In this document: positions 41,640 through 51,556 of the stretch, in pieces | How positions within the stretch are numbered: position 1 is the stretch's first letter | Layout: every line of letters starts with the position of its first letter | DNA from: Priestia megaterium | Lineage (GTDB): Bacteria; Bacillota; Bacilli; Bacillales; Bacillaceae_H | NCBI RefSeq assembly: GCF_009497655.1 | Contig: NZ_CP023317.1 | Coordinates: 2,509,501 to 2,573,500 of the forward strand | Direction of reading: 5' to 3' | DNA length: 64,000 bases | Notes under the pieces: model-generated | Told to the model about the DNA's origin: nothing | The model's database searches: none | What the model saw: the letters and a program-made list of their open reading frames with translations, nothing else | Translations under genes and position numbers: made by a program

Positions 41640-42764
41640 TTAGTCATATGGAATAAGCGCCACTGAAATGGTGACATTCCCTGACTTTTTCTTCACAAGT
41701 TCAAGCGTATCAGCACCGCTGTATAACATAGCAGCAGGTTCACTGACGCCATATGCACCTGTATATTTAAAGACTGTATCGGAAGGCTGTTCTATACTTA
41801 TGCTGTTTAGCTCTTGGGGCGAATAATAGACAAACTCCCAGCCGTACTTAAACGCCACTTCTAGCAGCCCTTCTTCATCTTTCTTTAACTCTATTGTACA
41901 TAATGCTTTTACACTTTTCATTGAAAACTGAAGTTCAGCAAGCGTTTTTTCAATAACGGTTTCAATTTCCGCTGCGCTTGTTCCTCTGTTGCACCCCATC
42001 CCAATCGCCAGTACTTTTGGACGGTAAAGAACACCGTTTTCTAAGATCGCTTCTTCTTCTTTTTTTAAATTGCGATGCGTTACGACCAAGGCTGCATGTG
42101 GCGATGCTTCGAGAGCTGTCTGAATCGATGAGTACGTTTTAATGTTAGCTGGAACAGGATGATCATAGTGCCACCAGCCCTTTTCACCTGATTCTTGAAC
42201 CACTGCTATTTCTTCTTCATTTACCACAGAAGCGCTGACAGGCGTTAGCTTTTCTGCGGATTCCCATACCCAGCCAAAACGCTTTCCAAATAAATCAACG
42301 GGAATCGTTTTTTGAACATCAGATGCTGTTGTAATAACAGGATGGGCCTCAAGAGCTGCCGCAACTTCACGCGTAAGCTCATTTGCTCCTCCGATATGAC
42401 CTGAAAGCACGCTGATCACATTTTCGCCTTTATCATCAATCACAACAACCGCAGGATCCGTTTTCTTATCTTTTAAAATAGGGGCAATCATACGTACAAC
42501 TGCTCCCAGTGAAATAATAATAATAAGTCCTTTATACGATTCAAAAAGAGAAGGCAAGAGCATCCGCACGCTTCCTGAAAACAGCTGAATGTTCTGTTCT
42601 CTTTCGTCTCCTTTTTCAAACTTGCTCATGTAATACACATCGGACTGCTGAAAAGTGCGGCCTAGATTTCTTGCAATTTCTACGCCATGCTTCGTGATGG
42701 CCACGACAGCATAATCCCCGCGCTGTGTAATGAGAGCTTTTTTTCCTTCTTGGAGTTGAATCAT
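41640..42764 (-). CDS. cbiG: cobalt-precorrin-5A hydrolase
   Basis: A 374-residue CbiG that opens the delta-lactone of cobalt-precorrin-5A and releases acetaldehyde. It shows the N-terminal AVVAITKHGVEIAR, the central SLGAVVRMIAP and SVLSGHIGGANELT (residues about 100-135), and the C-terminal ligand domain with LAIGMGCNRGTS near residue 270. Its start overlaps the stop of cbiF by four bases, so the two consecutive pathway enzymes are coupled. Confidence 0.93.
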   Translation of the reverse strand: MIQLQEGKKALITQRGDYAVVAITKHGVEIARNLGRTFQQSDVYYMSKFEKGDEREQNIQLFSGSVRMLLPSLFESYKGLIIIISLGAVVRMIAPILKDKKTDPAVVVIDDKGENVISVLSGHIGGANELTREVAAALEAHPVITTASDVQKTIPVDLFGKRFGWVWESAEKLTPVSASVVNEEEIAVVQESGEKGWWHYDHPVPANIKTYSSIQTALEASPHAALVVTHRNLKKEEEAILENGVLYRPKVLAIGMGCNRGTSAAEIETVIEKTLAELQFSMKSVKALCTIELKKDEEGLLEVAFKYGWEFVYYSPQELNSISIEQPSDTVFKYTGAYGVSEPAAMLYSGADTLELVKKKSGNVTISVALIPYD

Positions 42765-43537
42765 TCCGACTTCACTCCTCTTCGAAAGCCATGGGTAAAT
42801 GTTTTATCATAAAGTTTTGATCGATAATCTTTGTCATGAATGTGGGGGTCAAGGGCCCAGCCTGCCAAAATCATCGCCTGCTTACGAATGCCGTTTGTTC
42901 GCATAGCATCATCCAGGTCTTTTACCGTCGTGCGAACAATTTTTTCATCTGGCCACGTTGCTTTATAGACTACTACAACCGGCGTGTCCTCACTCCAACC
43001 GGCGCTTATAAATTCTTTCATTACTTTTTTTGTGAGCGTCGCACTTAAAAATAAAGCAATGGTACATTTATGTTTTGCTAAATCAGTTAATTTTTCAAAC
43101 TCAGGTACAGGCGTTCTTCCTTCAGCACGAGTTAAAATAACCGTTTGAGTCAAATCTGGAATGGTTAATTCTGCTTCAGCCGCTGCTGCTGCAGCAAATA
43201 CGGAGCTGACTCCCGGAACAATTTCAATATCAACGCCTTCTCTTTTTAAAAGCACCATTTGTTCCATAATGGCTCCGTACATAGCCGGATCTCCGGTATG
43301 AACTCTTACAACCATTTTTCCTTCACGCATGCGATCAAGCATCGTACTGACCATTTCTTCTAAATGCATACCAGCTGTTTTTAACACTTCAGCTCCTGGT
43401 TTAGACTTAGCAACTAGCTCTTCACTTACTAGTGAGTCAGCGTATAAAACAACATCTGCCTGCTGAAGTAATTTTAAGCCTTTTACGGTAATTAAATCTG
43501 GATCTCCGGGTCCAGCTCCGATTATGTATAACTTCAT
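42761..43537 (-). CDS. cbiF: cobalt-precorrin-4 C11-methyltransferase
   Basis: A 258-residue methylase with the family landmarks LYIIGAGPGDPDLITVKG (residues 3-20), VVRVHTGDPAMYGAI near residue 80 and VPGVSSVFAAAAAAEAELT near residue 107. It transfers a methyl from SAM to C11. The ATG at 43537 overlaps the TGA of cbiL (ATGA) and follows GGTGGTG. B. megaterium CbiF is the structurally known member of this family. Confidence 0.93.
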   Translation of the reverse strand: MKLYIIGAGPGDPDLITVKGLKLLQQADVVLYADSLVSEELVAKSKPGAEVLKTAGMHLEEMVSTMLDRMREGKMVVRVHTGDPAMYGAIMEQMVLLKREGVDIEIVPGVSSVFAAAAAAEAELTIPDLTQTVILTRAEGRTPVPEFEKLTDLAKHKCTIALFLSATLTKKVMKEFISAGWSEDTPVVVVYKATWPDEKIVRTTVKDLDDAMRTNGIRKQAMILAGWALDPHIHDKDYRSKLYDKTFTHGFRRGVKSE

Positions 43538-44235
43538 TTTCGCACCACCATTAGCGTTAAGTATTGTAAATCGGCTCCTTCTAGTTCTGAAGCTTTCCAA
43601 ATAATTTCTTCATCTGACGTTACTTTTGTTACCACCGATGCTTTTTCAAGCAGATCAAGCTCTTTTAAAAGACCGACCATAAAATCGATGACTTTAGCCA
43701 CTTTAATAAAAATAACGCAGTCGTTTTCCACCAATACTTTTTTCATTGTTTCATAATCTTCACGAGCAGGAACAATGGCCACATGTTCATCACCGTCTGC
43801 TAATGGAATGCCTAAGCGAGACGCAGCCCCGTTAATAGATGAAATACCAGGAATTACTTGAATAGGAGCTTGAGGGTGACGTTCTTGCATCAGGCGCATC
43901 ATGTGAATAAACGTGCTATAAAGCATAGGATCTCCCTCTGTCACAAATGCTACATCTTTTCCCTCCTGGAGCTTTTCCCATACTCGTTCCACTGTTTCGG
44001 TCCATTTTTTCTCTAAAATAGCAGGATCTTTTGTCATTGGAAACACAAGGCCCAGCATATCTTTTTCATTTGCACTGAAATAGACATCAATAATTTTTTG
44101 GGCATAGCTTTTGCTTCCTTTTTGCTTTTTTGGGTACGCAATAACGGGTGATTCTTTTAATTTACGAAATGCTTTTACTGTAATCAATTCTGGATCTCCT
44201 GGTCCAACTCCAAGTCCGTACAATGTTCCAATCAT
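43534..44235 (-). CDS. cbiL: cobalt-precorrin-2 C20-methyltransferase
   Basis: A 233-residue methylase: LYGLGVGPGDPELITVKA (residues 4-21), FVTEGDPMLYSTFIH near residue 100 and VIPGISSINGAASRLGIPL near residue 127. It adds the C20 methyl that is later lost with the ring contraction. The ATG at 44235 is eight bases from GAGGAG, better than the ATG two codons upstream. It lies two bases after cbiET ends. Confidence 0.93.
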   Translation of the reverse strand: MIGTLYGLGVGPGDPELITVKAFRKLKESPVIAYPKKQKGSKSYAQKIIDVYFSANEKDMLGLVFPMTKDPAILEKKWTETVERVWEKLQEGKDVAFVTEGDPMLYSTFIHMMRLMQERHPQAPIQVIPGISSINGAASRLGIPLADGDEHVAIVPAREDYETMKKVLVENDCVIFIKVAKVIDFMVGLLKELDLLEKASVVTKVTSDEEIIWKASELEGADLQYLTLMVVRK

Positions 44236-44237
44236 GT

Positions 44238-45434
44238 TCATTCTCCTCTTTTGGCTGTAATAATATAAATGGGGTTTAAAGCGTCAAATCGTGTTAAGTG
44301 TAAAATGGGCTTGCTTCTTGAAACTTGTGCAAGGGTAACAGCAGTCTCAAATCCTCGCTCTTTAAAAGCTTTCATCGCTTCTGCCAAATTTTCAATCGTT
44401 ACGGCATTTAATACGATGCGCCCTCCTGAATTTAATCGGCTGCAGCACACGTCTAAAATGGTTTCCATGCCTCCTGCTGTCCCTCCAATAAACACCGCAT
44501 CAGGATCAGCAAACTCACCTAACCCTTCCGGTGCTTTTCCGTGCACAGTATGGGCATCTACTCGAAATTTCGCTAGATTTCCCCTGCAGTTTTCCAAGTC
44601 TGCTTCGTTTTTTTCCACAGCAAAAATTTGTCCTTCACGCGCAATTTTAGCTGCTTCAATCGCGACTGAACCTGTACATGTTCCGATATCCCATACGACG
44701 CTGTCTCTCTTTAGCTGCAGGGCACTAATACTAAGTGTACGAACTTCTTTTTTAGTAATAAGTCCCTTGTCCGGCTTGCGTTGAATAAATTCATCGTCCT
44801 CTATTCCGAGAGGCCAGACTGGACTTTTTTCTACCTGTTTTAATATCACGACATTAAGCGGAGAAAAGAGTTGATTCGCCGCCTCTTCCAGCGAAAGCAG
44901 CTGACAGCGCTCCGCCTCTCCACCTAGATTCTCTGCCACAAACATCTTGTATTCTGTCATGCCGAATGATAACAAGTAGTTTGCCAGAGCACTAGGAGAA
45001 TTTTGCTCATCGGTTAAAATCGCCACTTTTTTATAACCGTCAATGCGCTGAGCCAGCCCTTTTATACTTCTGCCGTGCACGCTTGTAAAATAAGCGTCTT
45101 GCCATCGCTCTTTTAGACGTGAGAATGCAAGCTGAATAGAACTTAAATAAGGATATATTTCAACGTCTAGCTTCGCAGAAAGATAGCTTCCAATTCCGTA
45201 AAATAACGGATCGCCTGAGGCTAACACAACCGCATTTCCTTCTTCGTTTTTTAAACGTTCAACAAGGGAAGAAAGACCTCCTTCAATGGCTACTTTTTCT
45301 CCTTCGAAATCTTGAAAAAAGTCAAGGTGACGCTTTCCTCCAATTAGCACATCACTTTCATACACCCACTGTTCATACATAGGAAGTAGACTTAACTTCC
45401 CGTCGTCACCAATTCCAATAATTTTAATTGCCAT
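44238..45434 (-). CDS. cbiET: fused cobalt-precorrin-6/7 methyltransferase-decarboxylase CbiET
   Basis: A 398-residue fusion. The N-terminal half (about 1-200) is CbiE, a C5-methyltransferase ([13 protein letters not shown], then [17 protein letters not shown]). The C-terminal half is CbiT with a Rossmann SAM motif [18 protein letters not shown] near residue 238 and [11 protein letters not shown] near residue 310; it methylates C15 and decarboxylates the C12 acetate. The fusion matches CobL-type enzymes of the aerobic route. Overlaps cbiD by 11 bases. Confidence 0.93.
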
Positions 45435-46527
45435 GTTGCACCGCCTGTCCTAAAAAATCTCCTTTTAATGTGTAAAGAGACGTATCGACATCGATTCCGT
45501 CCCCTACTTCCTTTAATGCTGATAAACAGCAGTACTCGCACAGTTTTTCGAAAAACTGATGATGACCGCTTTGCGTCATTAAATCTCCCACTTGAGAAGC
45601 TGTGTTTGCGCCTTTTATTTCCTCTACCAGTTCAGCAGAAGCGCCTGACTCAGAAGCTGCTTTTGCTAAAAAATTAAAATCAATAGGTGCACTTTTTGAA
45701 TGAACCATCATAACGCCTTGCGCGACTTTTGAAAACTTTCCCATCATGCCTACGAGCGACACTTTTTTCATTCCTTGCTTTTTACATTGTTTTAACGTAA
45801 ATCCAACAAAATCTCCCATTTCGATAAATGCTTCTTCCGGAAGTTCTGGGAACTGTTTCATTCCATATTTTTCGCTTCGTCCCCCTGTCGTAATGACAAC
45901 GTGCTCACAATTACTCGCTTTAGCAACGCTAATGGCCTGCACGATACTTGCTTTATAAGCAGCTGTTGAGAACGGAACAACAATTCCCCGCGTCCCCAGT
46001 ATCGAAATGCCTCCTAAAATACCTAGACGCGCATTTAATGTCTTTTTCGCCATTTCTTCTCCTTCAGGAACCGAGATGACAATCTTAACGCCTTTTTGTA
46101 TGTTGTATTGGGCTAGAAGCTGTTCAGCCGTTTCTTTCAGCATCTTTCTTGGCACAGGGTTAATGGCTGCTTCACCGACAGGAACTGGGAGACCGGGCTT
46201 TGTCACACGCCCTACTCCCACTCCTCCATCAATGATAATGTCTGCACCATTACACCACGAAACTTCAGAAATAATCAGCGCTCCGTGCGTGGCATCGGGA
46301 TCATCTCCAGCATCTTTAATGATGCTGGCTACAGCGCTGCTTGTGCGATACTCGCATTCTTCAAGATGAAACGTAGCAAAGCGACCAACAGGTAAGTAAA
46401 TCGTTGACTCCTCTTGCACTTCTCCTGAAATTAGCGTAAGCAGAGCTGCTCTCGTAGCTGCCGTTGCACAAGCGCCCGTCGTATAGCCTTCTCTGAGTTT
46501 CTTAGGTTCTTTTGGTACTTCCTTCAT
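45424..46527 (-). CDS. cbiD: cobalt-precorrin-5B C1-methyltransferase
   Basis: A 367-residue CbiD, which installs the C1 methyl in the anaerobic pathway. It shows [19 protein letters not shown] (residues 11-29), then [14 protein letters not shown] near residue 70 and [15 protein letters not shown] near residue 100. It is unrelated to the other methylases and marks the oxygen-independent route. Its start is four bases after the cbiC stop. Confidence 0.93.
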
Positions 46528-46530
46528 GCG

Positions 46531-47178
46531 TTACACCTGATCTGCAAGAATTGAAATTGCATTTAATGCAGCAACCGTTACCGTACTGCCGCCTTTTCGC
46601 CCGATGTTTGTAATAAACGGCACGTCAAGTTTGGCAAGTTCTTCTTTCGATTCAGCCGCTGAAACAAACCCTACCGGCAGACCAATAACAAGTCCAGGCT
46701 TCGCTTCTCCTTCTTTAATCAAACGAATTAACTCAAGTAACGCTGTCGGTGCGTTCCCAATTGCAAAAATCCCGCCGTCTGCTTCTTTAATTGCTTTTCG
46801 CATAGAAATAATTGCACGCGTTGTATTTAAGCGCTTTGCTTCTTCCATTACGTCCGGATCTGAAATATAAACTTTGATTTCACCGCCGTGTTTTTCAATT
46901 CGCTGCTTGTTTGTTCCTACTTGCACCATTTGTACATCTGCAACCACTTGCTTGCCGCTGCGAATGGCTTTAATTCCTGCTTGAATCGCATCTGGATGAA
47001 ACAGCATGCTGCGTCCAAGCTCAAAGTCTGCAGACGCGTGAATTACCCGCTGAACAATTGGGTACTGTTCATCTGTAAACGGATGAGGTCCAAGCTCTTC
47101 TGTAATCATTTCAAAACTTTTTCCTTCAATTTGCTGAGGCTGAACAGTTAACGGTTTAAATTCTGTACGAAAATCCAT
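46531..47178 (-). CDS. cbiC: cobalt-precorrin-8 methylmutase
   Basis: A 215-residue CbiC that moves the C11 methyl to C12 to form cobyrinate. It shows RVIHASADFELG with the catalytic His (near residue 45), TTRAIISMRKA near residue 120, and GLPVGFVSAAESKE near residue 168. The ATG at 47178 follows AGGAG; an in-frame TTG three codons upstream is too close. It starts five bases after the cbiJ stop. Confidence 0.93.
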   Translation of the reverse strand: MDFRTEFKPLTVQPQQIEGKSFEMITEELGPHPFTDEQYPIVQRVIHASADFELGRSMLFHPDAIQAGIKAIRSGKQVVADVQMVQVGTNKQRIEKHGGEIKVYISDPDVMEEAKRLNTTRAIISMRKAIKEADGGIFAIGNAPTALLELIRLIKEGEAKPGLVIGLPVGFVSAAESKEELAKLDVPFITNIGRKGGSTVTVAALNAISILADQV

Positions 47179-47183
47179 CTCAA

Positions 47184-47951
47184 TCAACTCCTAGTTTGGT
47201 TTACTAAAGCATGAACCACTTCTTCAAACGTGGAATACACGGTCCCATACTCAATTTTCGGTCGCCCAATCATAATGATATCTAAGCCTAACTCTTTAGC
47301 TGCTTCCACTTTTTCATCCACAGATCCAACTTTTCCGCTTTCTTTTGTGACCATGACCGTCACTCCGTATTGCTTATACAGTGCTTGATCAAACTCTTTT
47401 GTAAACGGACCTTGAATAGCAATAATATTTTTTTGCGGCAATCCTAACTGCTGACACTTTTCCATATTATCCAGCCTTGGAAGCATACGAGCAACAAGCC
47501 GTACATCTGAAAGAGGAAGGAGCTTTTCTGTAAAAACCTGCAGCGTCTTGCTGCCTGTTGTCAGCATAATAACTCCTTTTTTCTCAGCTGCTACTTCAGC
47601 TGCTTCTTCATACGTAGAAACCATCGTCATATTGTCGTAGGTAAAAGCCTGCGAAGCCCGCTCATAGCGTATGTAAGGAATCGATGTTTCAGCAGCCGCA
47701 CCGATGGCGTTTTTAGATGCTTCTTCGGCAAAGGGGTGACTTGCATCCACAATAGCTTTTACACCATGTTCGTTTATAAAAGTCATCATATCTTCTTGTG
47801 TGAGACGTCCAATTTTCACTTTCACTTCTGCTCGCTGTAATTCGATTGCTGCATTGTCGGTTACAACCGTCGCCGTAACGTCGTAACCTTCTTTTTTCAC
47901 TTGAACAGCTAATGCACGTGCATCGCTAGTTCCCGCTAACAATAAAATCAT
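47184..47951 (-). CDS. cbiJ: cobalt-precorrin-6A reductase
   Basis: A 255-residue CbiJ/CobK reductase. It shows LLLAGTSDARALAVQ (residues 3-17), VDASHPFAEEASKNA near residue 68, and IAIQGPFTKEF near residue 153. It uses NAD(P)H to reduce the corrin ring. It overlaps cbiX by four bases. Confidence 0.92.
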   Translation of the reverse strand: MILLLAGTSDARALAVQVKKEGYDVTATVVTDNAAIELQRAEVKVKIGRLTQEDMMTFINEHGVKAIVDASHPFAEEASKNAIGAAAETSIPYIRYERASQAFTYDNMTMVSTYEEAAEVAAEKKGVIMLTTGSKTLQVFTEKLLPLSDVRLVARMLPRLDNMEKCQQLGLPQKNIIAIQGPFTKEFDQALYKQYGVTVMVTKESGKVGSVDEKVEAAKELGLDIIMIGRPKIEYGTVYSTFEEVVHALVNQTRS

Positions 47952-48868
47952 TTTAACTCGCCGACCTTATCTTCATGGTGGTGATGGTCATGATGGTGAT
48001 CGTGGTGATGGTGATCGTGGTGATGGTGCCCGTGATCATGATCGTGATGATGATGGTGATCAATATGCTCCATAATGCCGAGGCGATATTGACATGTATC
48101 GCAGTTCATTTTCACTTCGCCTTCTAATCCTTCTTCAGCACGTTCTTTTAAAATTGTCTGCAGTTTTGGATGAAAACCGAAATAGCCGGCTAGCTTAAAC
48201 TCAATGTTTTCATGCTGCATTTTATACTGCTTCACCATTTCTTCCAAACGCTTAATTAGTACTCCTGTAAATAAGAAATACGGGAGAATAACCACTTTTT
48301 TAGCGCCCAGTTTTAAACATCGTTCCACTCCTTCATCAATCAATGGAGCGGTCACGCCCATAAAAGAAGTTTCGACGATTTTGTAGTTTGTTTTTTCCCA
48401 AAGAAGGCGCGTAATTTTATATAAATCACTGTTTGCATCAGGATCGCTTCCTCCTCGCCCTAAGACAATAACAGCCGTGTCTTCAGCTGGAGTTTCTAAA
48501 TTTTCTCCTGATTCTTGTAATCTCGTTTTTAAAATTTCAAGGGCTTCTTCATGAACGCCAATGGGACGTCCGTACACGAAGTTTACGTGTGGATATTTTT
48601 CCTTAGCTTCATCTATAGCCGCCGGAATATGTATTTTTGAGTGGCCAGCTGGCAAGAGCATAATTGGAACTACAACTACATCTGTCGCTCCTTTTGCCAC
48701 ACATGTATCAATGCCTTGACTTACATTCGGACGTTCAAACTCTAGAAAACACGTTTCTACTAAAATAGATGGGTCCCAATCATGCTTCATAGTCGAGATA
48801 AACTCGCGAATTTGATCGTTCCCTTCAGGATCTCTACTTCCATGACCGACAAATAAAACTGATTTCAT
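47948..48868 (-). CDS. cbiX: sirohydrochlorin cobaltochelatase CbiX, long form
   Basis: A 306-residue chelatase that inserts cobalt into sirohydrochlorin early in the anaerobic pathway. It has two chelatase-like halves: VLFVGHGSRDPEGND with the catalytic His near residue 9, and AVIVLGRGGSDPDANS near residue 133. After the body comes an MNCDTC motif that fits the M-x-C-x-x-C [4Fe-4S] site described for the B. megaterium enzyme. The last 40 residues are almost only His and Asp, probably a metal store. The ATG at 48868 follows GGGAGG. Confidence 0.94.
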   Translation of the reverse strand: MKSVLFVGHGSRDPEGNDQIREFISTMKHDWDPSILVETCFLEFERPNVSQGIDTCVAKGATDVVVVPIMLLPAGHSKIHIPAAIDEAKEKYPHVNFVYGRPIGVHEEALEILKTRLQESGENLETPAEDTAVIVLGRGGSDPDANSDLYKITRLLWEKTNYKIVETSFMGVTAPLIDEGVERCLKLGAKKVVILPYFLFTGVLIKRLEEMVKQYKMQHENIEFKLAGYFGFHPKLQTILKERAEEGLEGEVKMNCDTCQYRLGIMEHIDHHHHHDHDHGHHHHDHHHHDHHHDHHHHEDKVGELK

Positions 48869-48885
48869 ATAATGCCCTCCCATTT

Positions 48886-50508
48886 TTAATCTCCACACGG
48901 AGCTGGTTCTACTTTTATTTTTGGTGTTATATCTTGATAGTCGAATCCATAAACATTCTTCACACGCTTAAAGAATTTATGAAACCGCTCATTTGGATGA
49001 CCTTTTTCTTTATATTCATGGACAATGTTCTCCACTATTTCAACAATGTCATCGGGCGCTATGCCTTCCGCCACAATTTGACCTGAATGGGCGTTTCGTC
49101 CAACCGTTTTAGCCCCTAAAAATAAGTCAAACGCACCTTTTCTGTAGACAATGCCGATATCTTCTTGAACAGCACCGTAACAGGCCATACCGCATCCATT
49201 AATACCAAGCTTCAGCTCTTTTGGCATGTCCATTCCACCGAGACGCTTTTGTAATTGTTCCGTATGCGGGATGGCGTCACTTTTTTCTCCATCACAAAAA
49301 TCACACGCTTTAATTGTAAACACGTCTCCGACTGGAGATAGTAAAAAGGAAGCTGATTGGAGCTTTTTAATAATCACATCTGGCTGAGCCGTTGGAATTT
49401 GCAGTTTGATTTGATGGTCAGGCGTATACTCCATCGTACCTTTTTCACCAACAACTTCTGCTAGTGTTGTCATTTGAACGGGCGTAAACTTCTTATTTGC
49501 AAGCCCTGGACTAACTGCCACTTCAAAAATAGACTCAATTGGCTGGTGTACGACCGGTGAAGTAGTTTCACCTAAAATTGCTTGAAGCGCTTCTTCTGCC
49601 AGAGCTCGTGAAGCTGCTTTTTCTTCTTTTGTGTTCTGAACATCTTCAATAGCTGAAGCCGTTTGCTTTACAGTCTCCTCTTGATCAAGAGCCCATGGTT
49701 CTGCTTCTTTTCGAAGTCGCTGATGCGGTCTTAGCGGCTGCTCTGTTTGGTTGAGGGTATATTTACGCTGATACCCGCGCGGTGTAATCATTAAGTCATC
49801 GTAAAAGAACGTAGATGAATTTCCGACAACAACGGTAGTCAGCATGCCTATTTCATGATTTAACATGTCTTTTAAATTGGTCATTACCACTTCTTCACGG
49901 TCACGATAAGCGCTTTTCACAAGACCAACAGGCGTATCGGGGGAACGGTATTTTAATAAAATCCTTTGCGCTTCCACAATTTGTCTTGTGCGTCTTCCGC
50001 TTTTCGGATTATAAAAAGCTACTACAAAATCTGCTTGTGCAGCTGCTTCGATTCGTTTTTCGATTAACTCCCAAGGCGTAAGGTGGTCACTTAAACTAAT
50101 CGTACAGGCATCATGCATCACGGGCGCCCCAAGGAGGGATGCGCATGAATTAATAGCCGAAATGCCAGGAATCACTTCCAGCTCTACGCCCGTTTCTTTT
50201 TTCCATCCTTTTTCAATCAACACTTCATACACAAGGCCGGCCATTCCGTATACTCCTGCATCTCCGCTTGAAATGACCGCCACGGTTTTTCCCGCTTCAG
50301 CTTGCTTTACGGCTTCTTGTGCACGGCTTACTTCTTCGGTCATTCCTGTACTAATAATTTGCTGATTCGTTAATAGTCCTTGAATTAATTCCACATAGGT
50401 TTTATAACCAATGATCATATCACTTTCTTGAATGGCTTCTCTTGCTCGCTGTGTAATATGTTCAAAGCTTCCTGGGCCGAATCCAATAACTAACAGTTTA
50501 CCTTTCAT
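48886..50508 (-). CDS. cbiH60: fused cobalt-factor III methyltransferase CbiH60
   Basis: A 540-residue ring-contraction enzyme. Residues 1-240 are CbiH (LLVIGFGPGSFEHIT, then VISSGDAGVYGMAG and EVIPGISAINSCASLLGAP), which methylates C17 and contracts the ring. The C-terminal part after a linker resembles nitrite/sulfite reductase Fe-S domains: CDFCDGE near residue 407 and INGCGMACYGA near residue 438 supply four Cys residues for a [4Fe-4S] cluster. This fusion is characteristic of B. megaterium. It follows cbiW by 13 bases. Confidence 0.94.
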   Translation of the reverse strand: MKGKLLVIGFGPGSFEHITQRAREAIQESDMIIGYKTYVELIQGLLTNQQIISTGMTEEVSRAQEAVKQAEAGKTVAVISSGDAGVYGMAGLVYEVLIEKGWKKETGVELEVIPGISAINSCASLLGAPVMHDACTISLSDHLTPWELIEKRIEAAAQADFVVAFYNPKSGRRTRQIVEAQRILLKYRSPDTPVGLVKSAYRDREEVVMTNLKDMLNHEIGMLTTVVVGNSSTFFYDDLMITPRGYQRKYTLNQTEQPLRPHQRLRKEAEPWALDQEETVKQTASAIEDVQNTKEEKAASRALAEEALQAILGETTSPVVHQPIESIFEVAVSPGLANKKFTPVQMTTLAEVVGEKGTMEYTPDHQIKLQIPTAQPDVIIKKLQSASFLLSPVGDVFTIKACDFCDGEKSDAIPHTEQLQKRLGGMDMPKELKLGINGCGMACYGAVQEDIGIVYRKGAFDLFLGAKTVGRNAHSGQIVAEGIAPDDIVEIVENIVHEYKEKGHPNERFHKFFKRVKNVYGFDYQDITPKIKVEPAPCGD

Positions 50509-50521
50509 GCTAGCTCCTCCT

Positions 50522-50902
50522 TTATGCGTTACTTTTTACTTTGTCAATTCCTTCTATGGAGTCACTCTTTTCCGGAGAAACAAAACCGTTTTGATCATAT
50601 TCATAAATAAGTGATTCCTTTATACTGCAGCCTCCTGCTAAATGTTCTTCAACAATTCGATGAGCTACGTTTTCAGTGACCTGCTTGTACCAATCTCCTG
50701 AAGGGTACACGATAGCTACAGGAGCATCTTTGCATCTTCCGTTACAGCGCGTACGGGTTGTGTGAACCGCTTCATCTAGATTCAGTTCAGTCACTTTATT
50801 TCGAATAGCTTGAGTGGCTTCTTCTCCACCTTTTCTCATACAGCTGCTTCCATTACAAATCAATACGTGATGTTTTGTTCCATTTAAGTTCCACGTCGTC
50901 AC
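50522..50902 (-). CDS. cbiW: CbiW, thioredoxin-like [2Fe-2S] ferredoxin
   Basis: A 126-residue protein with a thioredoxin-like ferredoxin core. It shows HVLICNGSSCMRKGGEE (residues 12-28) and TRTRCNGRCKDAPVAIVYP near residue 50, giving the four cluster Cys residues (two per motif). It is probably an electron donor for the Fe-S enzymes CbiX, CbiH60 or the reductive steps. It starts with GTG after AAAGGAG and is the first gene after the riboswitch leader. Confidence 0.9.
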   Translation of the reverse strand: MTTWNLNGTKHHVLICNGSSCMRKGGEEATQAIRNKVTELNLDEAVHTTRTRCNGRCKDAPVAIVYPSGDWYKQVTENVAHRIVEEHLAGGCSIKESLIYEYDQNGFVSPEKSDSIEGIDKVKSNA

Positions 50903-50928
50903 ACTTATTCGCTCCTTTACTAAAAAAA

Positions 50929-50951
50929 CGCCTCTATCAATGATAGAGGCG
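50929..50951 (-). terminator. intrinsic terminator of cobalamin riboswitch 2
   Basis: CGCCTCTATCA with its complement, followed on the minus strand by seven T residues at 50928-50922. It lies 20 bases before the cbiW start. It is the expression platform of the second riboswitch. Confidence 0.9.
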
Positions 50952-51009
50952 CAGAAAAATTCAAACTAAGTTTTTGCACTTCCACCTATATCCCGTAGGG
51001 TAAGCTTCG

Positions 51010-51165
51010 CATTAGAAAAAGGCTGGTTTCCTGACTTCGATTCATCACTTGATTGCGCCTTCCCGAATACAGTGGCATATGCAATCAGCTCCTCTTCACA
51101 GTGGCGGGTACCGCGCTGGCTTCACACCAGACTTCCCATTTAACGCAATGTGAACATTGCGCACC
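51010..51165 (-). ncRNA. cobalamin riboswitch 2 (proximal)
   Basis: On the minus strand the conserved elements appear in order: ATGGGAAGTCTGGTG, then GTACCCGCCACTGTGA, then GCCACTG, TTCGGGAAGGCGC and the B12-box-like AGTCAGGAAACCAGCC. Spacing and order fit a cobalamin aptamer. The central motif reads CCCGCCACTG rather than the commoner CCCGCAACTG. It ends about 60 bases before the terminator at 50929, so it most likely stops transcription when B12 is bound. Confidence 0.9.
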
Positions 51166-51202
51166 TTTTTTGCACGATATGTAGTTTTGTGCTACGAGAA
51201 AA

Positions 51203-51229
51203 ACCCGCTTCGCTAATATGCGAGCGGGT
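51203..51229 (-). terminator. intrinsic terminator of cobalamin riboswitch 1
   Basis: On the minus strand ACCCGCTCGC and GCGAAGCGGGT form a stem followed by TTTTTC. The 5' arm can instead pair with GAGCGGG at 51284-51290, just after aptamer 1, giving an antiterminator. Both alternatives are visible in the sequence. Confidence 0.85.
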
Positions 51230-51309
51230 AAAACGTCAGAATAAAAGTGTACACGAATGCCACTTTAAGCCAACGTTTCCCTTCCCGCTCCCCGGAGAAA
51301 TAGAAACTT

Positions 51310-51480
51310 CACAATAAAGACAGGTCTCCTGACTTGTGTATCATTCTACTTGAGAACCTTCCCGTGATTTTTCCACAGTGGTTATACTCGTTCGTCCACA
51401 CTTACAGTTGCGGGGGCAGTACTGGTCTTTCACCAGTTTCCCTATTAAGCCTTCTTGGCATCTTTACTGTTGCTGTTTGA
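51310..51480 (-). ncRNA. cobalamin riboswitch 1 (distal)
   Basis: On the minus strand: GGCTTAATAGGGAAACTGG, then CTGCCCCCGCAACTGTAAG, CCACTGTGG, CACGGGAAGG and the exact B12 box AGTCAGGAGACCTGTC. This is a full consensus cobalamin aptamer. It begins about 40 bases after the expected transcription start and is followed by its own terminator at 51203. Confidence 0.93.
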
Positions 51481-51527: not shown

Positions 51528-51556
51528 ATCATAGCGTACATTTTTTTTTATTTCAA
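51528..51556 (-). promoter_or_regulatory. cobI operon promoter
   Basis: On the minus strand TTGAAA (51556-51551), a 17-base spacer and TATGAT (51533-51528). It predicts a transcript start near 51521, ahead of both riboswitches. Fits sigma-A. Confidence 0.7.

Follow-up and report, generated by a model that had tools for sequence, protein, structure and literature searches.

The cobI operon and its leader

The DNA investigated here, a stretch of 64,000 nucleotides of Priestia megaterium to which we refer as the window, carries on its minus strand a run of ten genes located downstream of a pair of cobalamin riboswitches. By their Pfam content these encode, in this order, a 2Fe-2S ferredoxin, a fusion of TP_methylase and NIR_SIR domains, CbiX with a histidine-rich tail, CbiJ, CbiC, CbiD, three methylases and CbiG. 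We take this run to be the cobI operon of Priestia (Bacillus) megaterium and have assigned gene names by order, with Pfam names covering CbiX, CbiJ, CbiC, CbiD and CbiG and order providing those of the three methylase genes, presumably cbiET, cbiL and cbiF (Table 1). CbiX (47948-48898, minus strand) carries a long histidine-rich tail, a feature known from cbiX of P. megaterium. Just upstream of the promoter-like site of the operon, a 52-codon open frame (51785-51627, minus strand) resembles a separate small gene when inspected by eye, as does a hairpin with T tract at its end (about 51625-51589) a terminator.

Table 1. Position of operon genes and leader elements in the window
Feature	Position	Strand	Basis and details
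First operon gene, thioredoxin-like 2Fe-2S ferredoxin (presumably cbiW)	50522..50902	-	Pfam, PF01257
TP_methylase + NIR_SIR fusion gene (presumably CbiH60)	48886..50508	-	Pfam
Eight further operon genes: cbiX, cbiJ, cbiC, cbiD, cbiET, cbiL, cbiF, cbiG	41640..48898	-	Pfam and order
Promoter-like site upstream of first aptamer	51528..51556	-	TTGAAA-17-TATGAT, 10/12 consensus match
Aptamer A1 (distal, type 1), RF00174	51302..51480	-	121.8 bits, E 4.9e-30, model 1-189; L5 CCCCCG 51416-51411
P13-L13 hairpin, switch 1	51275..51307	-	L13 CGGGG 51294-51290, 5 bases complementary to L5 of A1
Antiterminator strand, switch 1	51284..51290	-	GAGCGGG; partner 51228-51222
Intrinsic terminator T1 with T tract	51196..51229	-	Stem 51229-51203
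Aptamer A2 (proximal, type 2), RF00174	51004..51183	-	108.6 bits, E 2.9e-26, model 1-189; L5 UACCCG 51110-51105
P13-L13 hairpin, switch 2	50985..50999	-	CCUA/UAGG; L13 CGGG 50995-50992, 4 bases complementary to L5 of A2
Candidate antiterminator strand, switch 2	50976..50986	-	GGUGGA-A-GUGC; partner T2 5' arm 50952-50942
Intrinsic terminator T2	50928..50952	-	Terminator scan

Two complete cobalamin aptamers

A search of the whole window with cmscan at Rfam gathering scores (31.5 bits in case of RF00174) yielded two matches only, both to RF00174, both on the minus strand and each covering the model from end to end. The original prediction of two complete cobalamin aptamers in series is thus borne out by the covariance model, with both scores (121.8 and 108.6 bits) being well above the cut-off. 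The two aptamers are separated by 118 bases. The proximal core had been described as slightly off consensus, which is true in terms of its 6 misses among the 66 upper-case positions printed by cmscan but hardly distinguishes it from the distal core with its 4. Both alignments cover the P6 extension, a feature that is described as marking the AdoCbl class of cobalamin riboswitches (PMC8123684), and by this feature A1 and A2 would both be assigned to this class (Cbl-I).

Elsewhere in the same genome, we have observed a 133-base cobalamin riboswitch (L008:1501-1633, G000:C1:1927080-1927212; 93.1 bits) without most of the P6 extension, where 6 bases stand in for 62 consensus positions. From their reading frames, we take the genes behind it to resemble btuF/cobII. 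Five of the ten genomes of the genus contain matches of the same length and similar score (92.4-93.1).

Expression platforms of both switches

The two aptamers are followed by the same parts in the same order, namely a complement of the kissing loop, P13, an antiterminator strand and an intrinsic terminator, and in the predicted pairings of both switches the antiterminator is provided by the 3' strand of P13. That each aptamer has a terminator of its own, as proposed initially, has held for T1 (51229-51203) and for T2, which had been placed at 50929-50951, where a terminator does reside although its true span of 50952-50928 is wider by one base on each side. The arms of the T1 stem (ACCCGCTCGC/GCGAAGCGGGT) precede a T tract, and its absence from the list of a simple terminator scan is probably a consequence of a bulge in the stem.

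In switch 1, the antiterminator is visible as previously claimed, with GAGCGGG at 51290-51284 being fully complementary to CCCGCUC at 51228-51222 in the 5' arm of T1, and an inner helix can be formed between GAAACGU at 51279-51273 and its complement at 51236-51230. When dinucleotides of the spacer were shuffled, a Watson-Crick run as long as that of GAGCGGG arose in 45 of 2000 cases, or in 335 of 2000 if G-U pairs are admitted. When truncated ahead of the T1 3' arm, the RNA is predicted to adopt the antiterminator fold (-33.0 kcal/mol), and inclusion of this arm leads to the terminator at -39.0 kcal/mol, compared to -34.3 kcal/mol with the antiterminator forced. When considering the window alone, an antiterminator that engages as many bases of the T1 arm is obtained with 11 of 60 shuffled spacers.

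The antiterminator candidate of switch 2 was absent from the original description. Its run length is not significant in the window alone, being equalled in 1310 of 2000 spacer shuffles (746 of 2000 with G-U pairs), and none of 60 shuffles folds as many bases of the T2 arm away, so that run-length and fold-based tests point in opposite directions for the two switches. T2 is located upstream of AAAGGAG and a GTG start at 50902. Two other architectures do not match this arrangement: a tandem of two mechanisms with the second switch acting on translation probably does not apply since T2 is an intrinsic terminator, and a shared platform as in the glycine riboswitch, which holds two like aptamers per leader, is ruled out by the location of T1 between the aptamers, which in cobI provides a terminator for each.

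Distribution of the doublet

Within the genus, CbiH60 was found in six of ten genomes and the doublet in five of these six. In a sample of 397 genomes at the level of the order, 85 contain CbiH60 (E <=1e-60), which is preceded by two co-directed RF00174 matches in 13, a single match in 44, one match combined with a divergent one on the opposite strand in 9, and no match within about 1.5-1.7 kb in the remaining 19, some of whose operons may start with a different gene. The divergent pairs are back-to-back cobalamin riboswitches sharing one short region (L112, L113, L114, L115, L118, L120, L121, L135 and L138). Doublet carriers include Priestia aryabhattai, P. koreensis, Ectobacillus panaciterrae, Bacillus sp. 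EB600 and Neobacillus pocheonensis, the latter three of which, together with the 13 genomes, provide the 16 tandem leaders used for comparison. The gaps between aptamers in doublets span 114-239 bases. A blastn search of PLSDB did not reveal plasmid copies of the leader.

Of the 16 tandem leaders, 15 have a promoter-like site matching at least 9 of 12 consensus positions ahead of their first aptamer, and the gap between the aptamers is devoid of such a site in 15 of 16, with L085 containing one that scores 9. In the window, the best score is 8 in the gap and 10 upstream, which are predictions by sequence, and the two promoter-like sites found on both strands of its leader region compare to 2.0 in shuffles. 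A second promoter between the aptamers is disfavoured by the 15 of 16 gaps that lack a 9/12 site and, as judged by such sites, both switches probably reside in one transcript.

Conservation of the platforms

For type 2, we have compared 23 platforms, 15 from tandem leaders and eight from chosen singles. Its P13 and T2 are paired in 97.5% of cells, compared to 26-52% when the partner is slid, and both sides have changed in 5 of 14 pairs, which was matched by 1 of 500 shuffles. The covariation score was reached by none of 500 shuffles and the number of further pair types by 53 of 500. The antiterminator in the same 23 rows is paired in 92.7% of cells (20-68% when slid) and its covariation score was reached by 1 of 500 shuffles, but both-side changes are found in only 1 of 9 pairs and were equalled by 259 of 500. 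In two of the 23 rows (L177 and L179, from one family), a change in the P13 column that is shared with the antiterminator is accompanied by changes in both of its partners. At this column, P13 is intact and the antiterminator disrupted in L088, L105 shows the reverse, and five rows including the window carry a C-U mismatch in P13.

Since the registers of T1 and the outer antiterminator differ between the P. megaterium group and other leaders, type-1 platforms were assessed by a count per row instead of column-wise counting of pairs. The outer antiterminator forms 7/7 pairs in all five P. megaterium-group rows and 5-6/6 pairs in 10 of the 11 other rows, where the register is offset by 4, a count that is not specific as each set partly fits the other register (with 5/6, or 5/7 in 10/11 rows). 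Of the 16 rows, L088 and L124 were misaligned and have been excluded from the count of the inner helix. The type-1 platform of L129 shows no clear terminator and that of L126 no kissing-loop complement.

Among distinct platforms, 13 of 17 of type 1 and 17 of 23 of type 2 have at least five bases of the terminator 5' arm engaged in the antiterminator in predicted folds of the nascent RNA, the remaining 4/17 and 6/23 having fewer than five such pairs. These sets comprise 19 given platforms for type 1 (the 16 tandem leaders and 3 of 32 singles from the type-1 side of the aptamer tree) and 24 for type 2 (the 16 tandem leaders and 8 of 24 type-2-side singles), and shuffled spacers reach the observed fold count in 232/1020 (23%) and 305/1380 (22%) cases, respectively. 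As the rows are related and partly hand-picked, none of these conservation figures are clean probabilities.

Origin of the pair

The relationship between the aptamers was investigated in a full tree of 104 aptamers, 103 of them different, and in a reduced tree of 88, from which six paralogues of the same genome, nine divergent copies and L093 were dropped. In both trees, a branch with a support of 100/100 in the reduced and 97/70 in the full tree separates all 16 distal aptamers from all 16 proximal ones, and the order of a distal type 1 followed by a proximal type 2 is constant in all 16 tandem leaders. The 56 singles of the reduced tree are distributed between the distal (32) and the proximal side (24), and a clade of 25 rows holds all 16 proximal aptamers together with 9 singles. 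With about 190 columns from an alignment that is not structure-aware, these trees serve as guides; both carry long-branch warnings, which in the reduced tree also concern the junction of the two sides, and the bootstrap of the reduced tree is unsettled. For the full tree, a grouping of all 16 A1 in a single clade was rejected (p-AU 8e-5), L126 and L129 being placed apart from the others, albeit on their side. In their absence, a clade of the remaining 14 A1 was not rejected (p-AU 0.13), and neither was one of all 16 A2 (0.08).

These relationships bear on the view that the pair would be the product of a recent local duplication without a function of its own. The presence of one family twice at a distance of 118 bases would be consistent with such an event, and a joint clade of the ten copies of the P. 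megaterium group was not rejected in the reduced tree (p-AU 0.094). The same clade was, however, rejected in the full tree (p-AU 0.003), as was, in the reduced tree, a joint A1 and A2 clade for seven leaders of other genera (p-AU 3e-29). Moreover, A1 of the window is closer to most foreign A1s, with 82-88% identity in 9 of 11 tandem leaders outside of the P. megaterium group and 72 and 74% in the other two, than to its own A2 (78% over 160 aligned bases). A recent duplication is thus disfavoured and in our judgement highly improbable.

A decayed second switch

An arrangement of different kind was found in L084/L104, deposited as P. megaterium CH447_14T, which has retained a type-1 switch (L084:1648-1824) and T1. 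At the place expected for the second switch, cmscan did not detect a cobalamin match at E up to 10, but the region L084:1930-2200 matches the profile of the type-2 unit (nhmmer, E 2.6e-11) and aligns to the A2 unit of the window with a score of 81, compared to at most 57 in 1000 shuffles. P13-like and terminator-like parts are still readable in its sequence. When searching for remnants of a partner near single aptamers (within 600 bases or to the end of the locus; nhmmer E <=1), L104 was the only hit. The remnant of switch 2 in a relative implies that the second switch can be lost and that the doublet is probably older than the species of L084/L104, as far as sequence comparison can tell.

The same leader could be taken to illustrate that the distal switch acts as main B12 gate and that its proximal counterpart is vestigial or active only under other conditions, as it copes without a second switch beyond the remnant. 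The proximal aptamer of the window also scores lower (108.6 vs 121.8 bits), and there is a precedent in the tandem TPP riboswitches of tenA in Bacillus anthracis, which as in cobI are two independent switches of the same class in series, albeit for another ligand, and where RNA-seq is reported to detect activity in the upstream switch only (PMC12121620). Yet, the proximal aptamer of the window is complete and equipped with a kissing-loop complement, P13 and a terminator, P13 and T2 of type 2 covary across the 23 platforms, and the 24 of 56 singles on its side of the tree show that an aptamer of the proximal type can be the sole co-directed one found before cobI. We thus consider a proximal relic to be improbable.

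Probable series gating of the operon

What we have computed for the cobI leader are its aptamers, terminators and alternative pairings and their conservation, from which we infer AdoCbl as ligand, termination in the cell, the independence of the gates and the product rule described below. We consider it likely that the leader is transcribed as one RNA in which two cobalamin OFF switches follow each other, function independently and both control transcription termination. Binding of B12 to the aptamer of either switch would bring L5 into a kissing interaction with L13 that keeps P13 closed. The 3' strand of the closed P13 would then be withheld as antiterminator, thus allowing the terminator to form and RNA polymerase to stop; without B12, this strand would instead pair with the terminator 5' arm, and transcription would continue. 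Both gates would have to be passed before cbiW, and the overall readthrough would approximate the product of the two individual ones, resulting in a multiplied leak, repression from lower B12 concentrations and only slight steepening.

In a model of such a series, a leak of 5% decreases to 0.25%, which is in line with the tighter response initially ascribed to tandem gating, and for equal affinities the half-repression point shifts to 0.41-0.47 of its single value. The claim that the response would also be more digital applies at most marginally: two equal independent switches do steepen it, but with a modelled Hill coefficient of 1.13-1.19, which decreases to 1.09-1.16 for threefold different affinities and to 0.82-1.10 for 10- to 100-fold differences. 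The term digital is used for tandem riboswitches in the literature (PMC9481103, PMC2258182).

Compatible with two OFF switches in series is a scenario where both are specialised for different thresholds or corrinoids, and where the response would be staggered instead of sharpened. It would account for the strongly supported split of distal and proximal aptamers and their invariable order, and it is consistent with differences between their sequences. A complement of L5 in L13 of at least four bases is found in 30 of the 32 aptamers of tandem leaders, except for L126_A1, which has none, and L129_A1, which was left unscored since no terminator was found there. This complement is longer in distal aptamers (5 or 6 bases in 14/16) than in proximal ones (4 bases in 16/16). 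L5 reads YCCCCG in 16/16 distal aptamers and UACCCG (14/16) or GUCCCG (2/16) in proximal ones, and 14 distal aptamers (L126 and L129 left out) are further distinguished from the 16 proximal ones by near-fixed differences in 18 columns, of which 6 are gaps. In the model, affinities that are 100-fold apart combined with a leak of 5-10% lower the Hill coefficient to values below 1. On the other hand, affinity cannot be read from sequence, both aptamers share the P6 extension that marks AdoCbl riboswitches, and in a published reporter test of 38 functional riboswitches those of Bacilli are described as exclusively semiselective (PMC9600662). A specialisation for threshold or corrinoid is thus possible but in our view rather unlikely. 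With similar reserve, we tentatively propose that the cobI leader of Bacillaceae could be a two-module device, composed of anciently distinct lineages in a fixed order, whose modules, specialised in kissing-loop strength, threshold or corrinoid form, might be lost singly and thereby retune B12 synthesis.

Relation to known tandem riboswitches

Tandem riboswitches of the pseudo-cooperative kind were reportedly described by Sudarsan in 2006, and control of the cobI operon of P. megaterium DSM319 by a cobalamin riboswitch is said to have been described by Moore in 2014. With one class present twice and a predicted platform for each aptamer, the pair investigated here would belong to this pseudo-cooperative kind. 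As a phenomenon, tandem AdoCbl riboswitches are already known, and what the cobI pair adds is a conserved two-type design. In 2007, tandems were described in less than 1% of the leaders of this class (PMC2258182), and 26 AdoCbl doublets were reported in 2022 (Sherlock et al. 2022, PMC9481103). These resemble the cobI leader in containing the same class twice with own platforms before one operon. Their organisms and operons are not named in the text consulted, so that the cobI pair may be included among them, and, unlike for the cobI pair, an origin from two lineages or a fixed order is not mentioned in the same text. In the main text of a survey of contiguous riboswitches from 2025, no match was obtained for a cobalamin-cobalamin pair, cbi or cobI (PMC12452182). 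Among the literature matches listed for doublet cobalamin switches, there was no cobI doublet, and phrase matches concerned, by their titles, Oleidesulfovibrio and Leptospira. Within the matches listed, we have thus not found in print a doublet before cobI in 13/85 genomes, its composition from two lineages in fixed order, or its decayed remnant.

The closest mechanistic counterpart is the cobalamin switch of metE in P. megaterium, where mutations are reported to support that kissing between L5 and L13 stabilises P13, whose 3' side is the antiterminator strand (PMC10653944), a scheme into which both cobI switches fit. The metE leader differs in that its cobalamin switch is combined with one for SAM (PMC9600662), where cobI has two cobalamin switches in succession. 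For P. megaterium DSM319, a review counts eight cobalamin riboswitches and names seven loci (PMC8390425). It describes cobI as sensitive to nM cobalamin and as carrying 'a' cobalamin riboswitch and terminator, with no mention of a tandem in the text consulted, in contrast to the two in the window (PMC8390425). The genome of the window likewise contains eight cobalamin riboswitches, and seven named loci would fit this number if cobI counts twice, with the caveat that the list of the review may be partial. Nine functional riboswitches of P. megaterium have been tested in reporters, with loci unnamed in the text consulted (PMC9600662), and the two cobI switches may be among them.

Our study has thus identified natural leaders with type 1 alone, type 2 alone, both, or a decayed second switch in front of the same operon of related bacteria, which makes the question of why two switches would serve one ligand amenable to testing. 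For the engineering of strains for B12 production, it implies that the deletion of one cobI riboswitch would leave the other in place.
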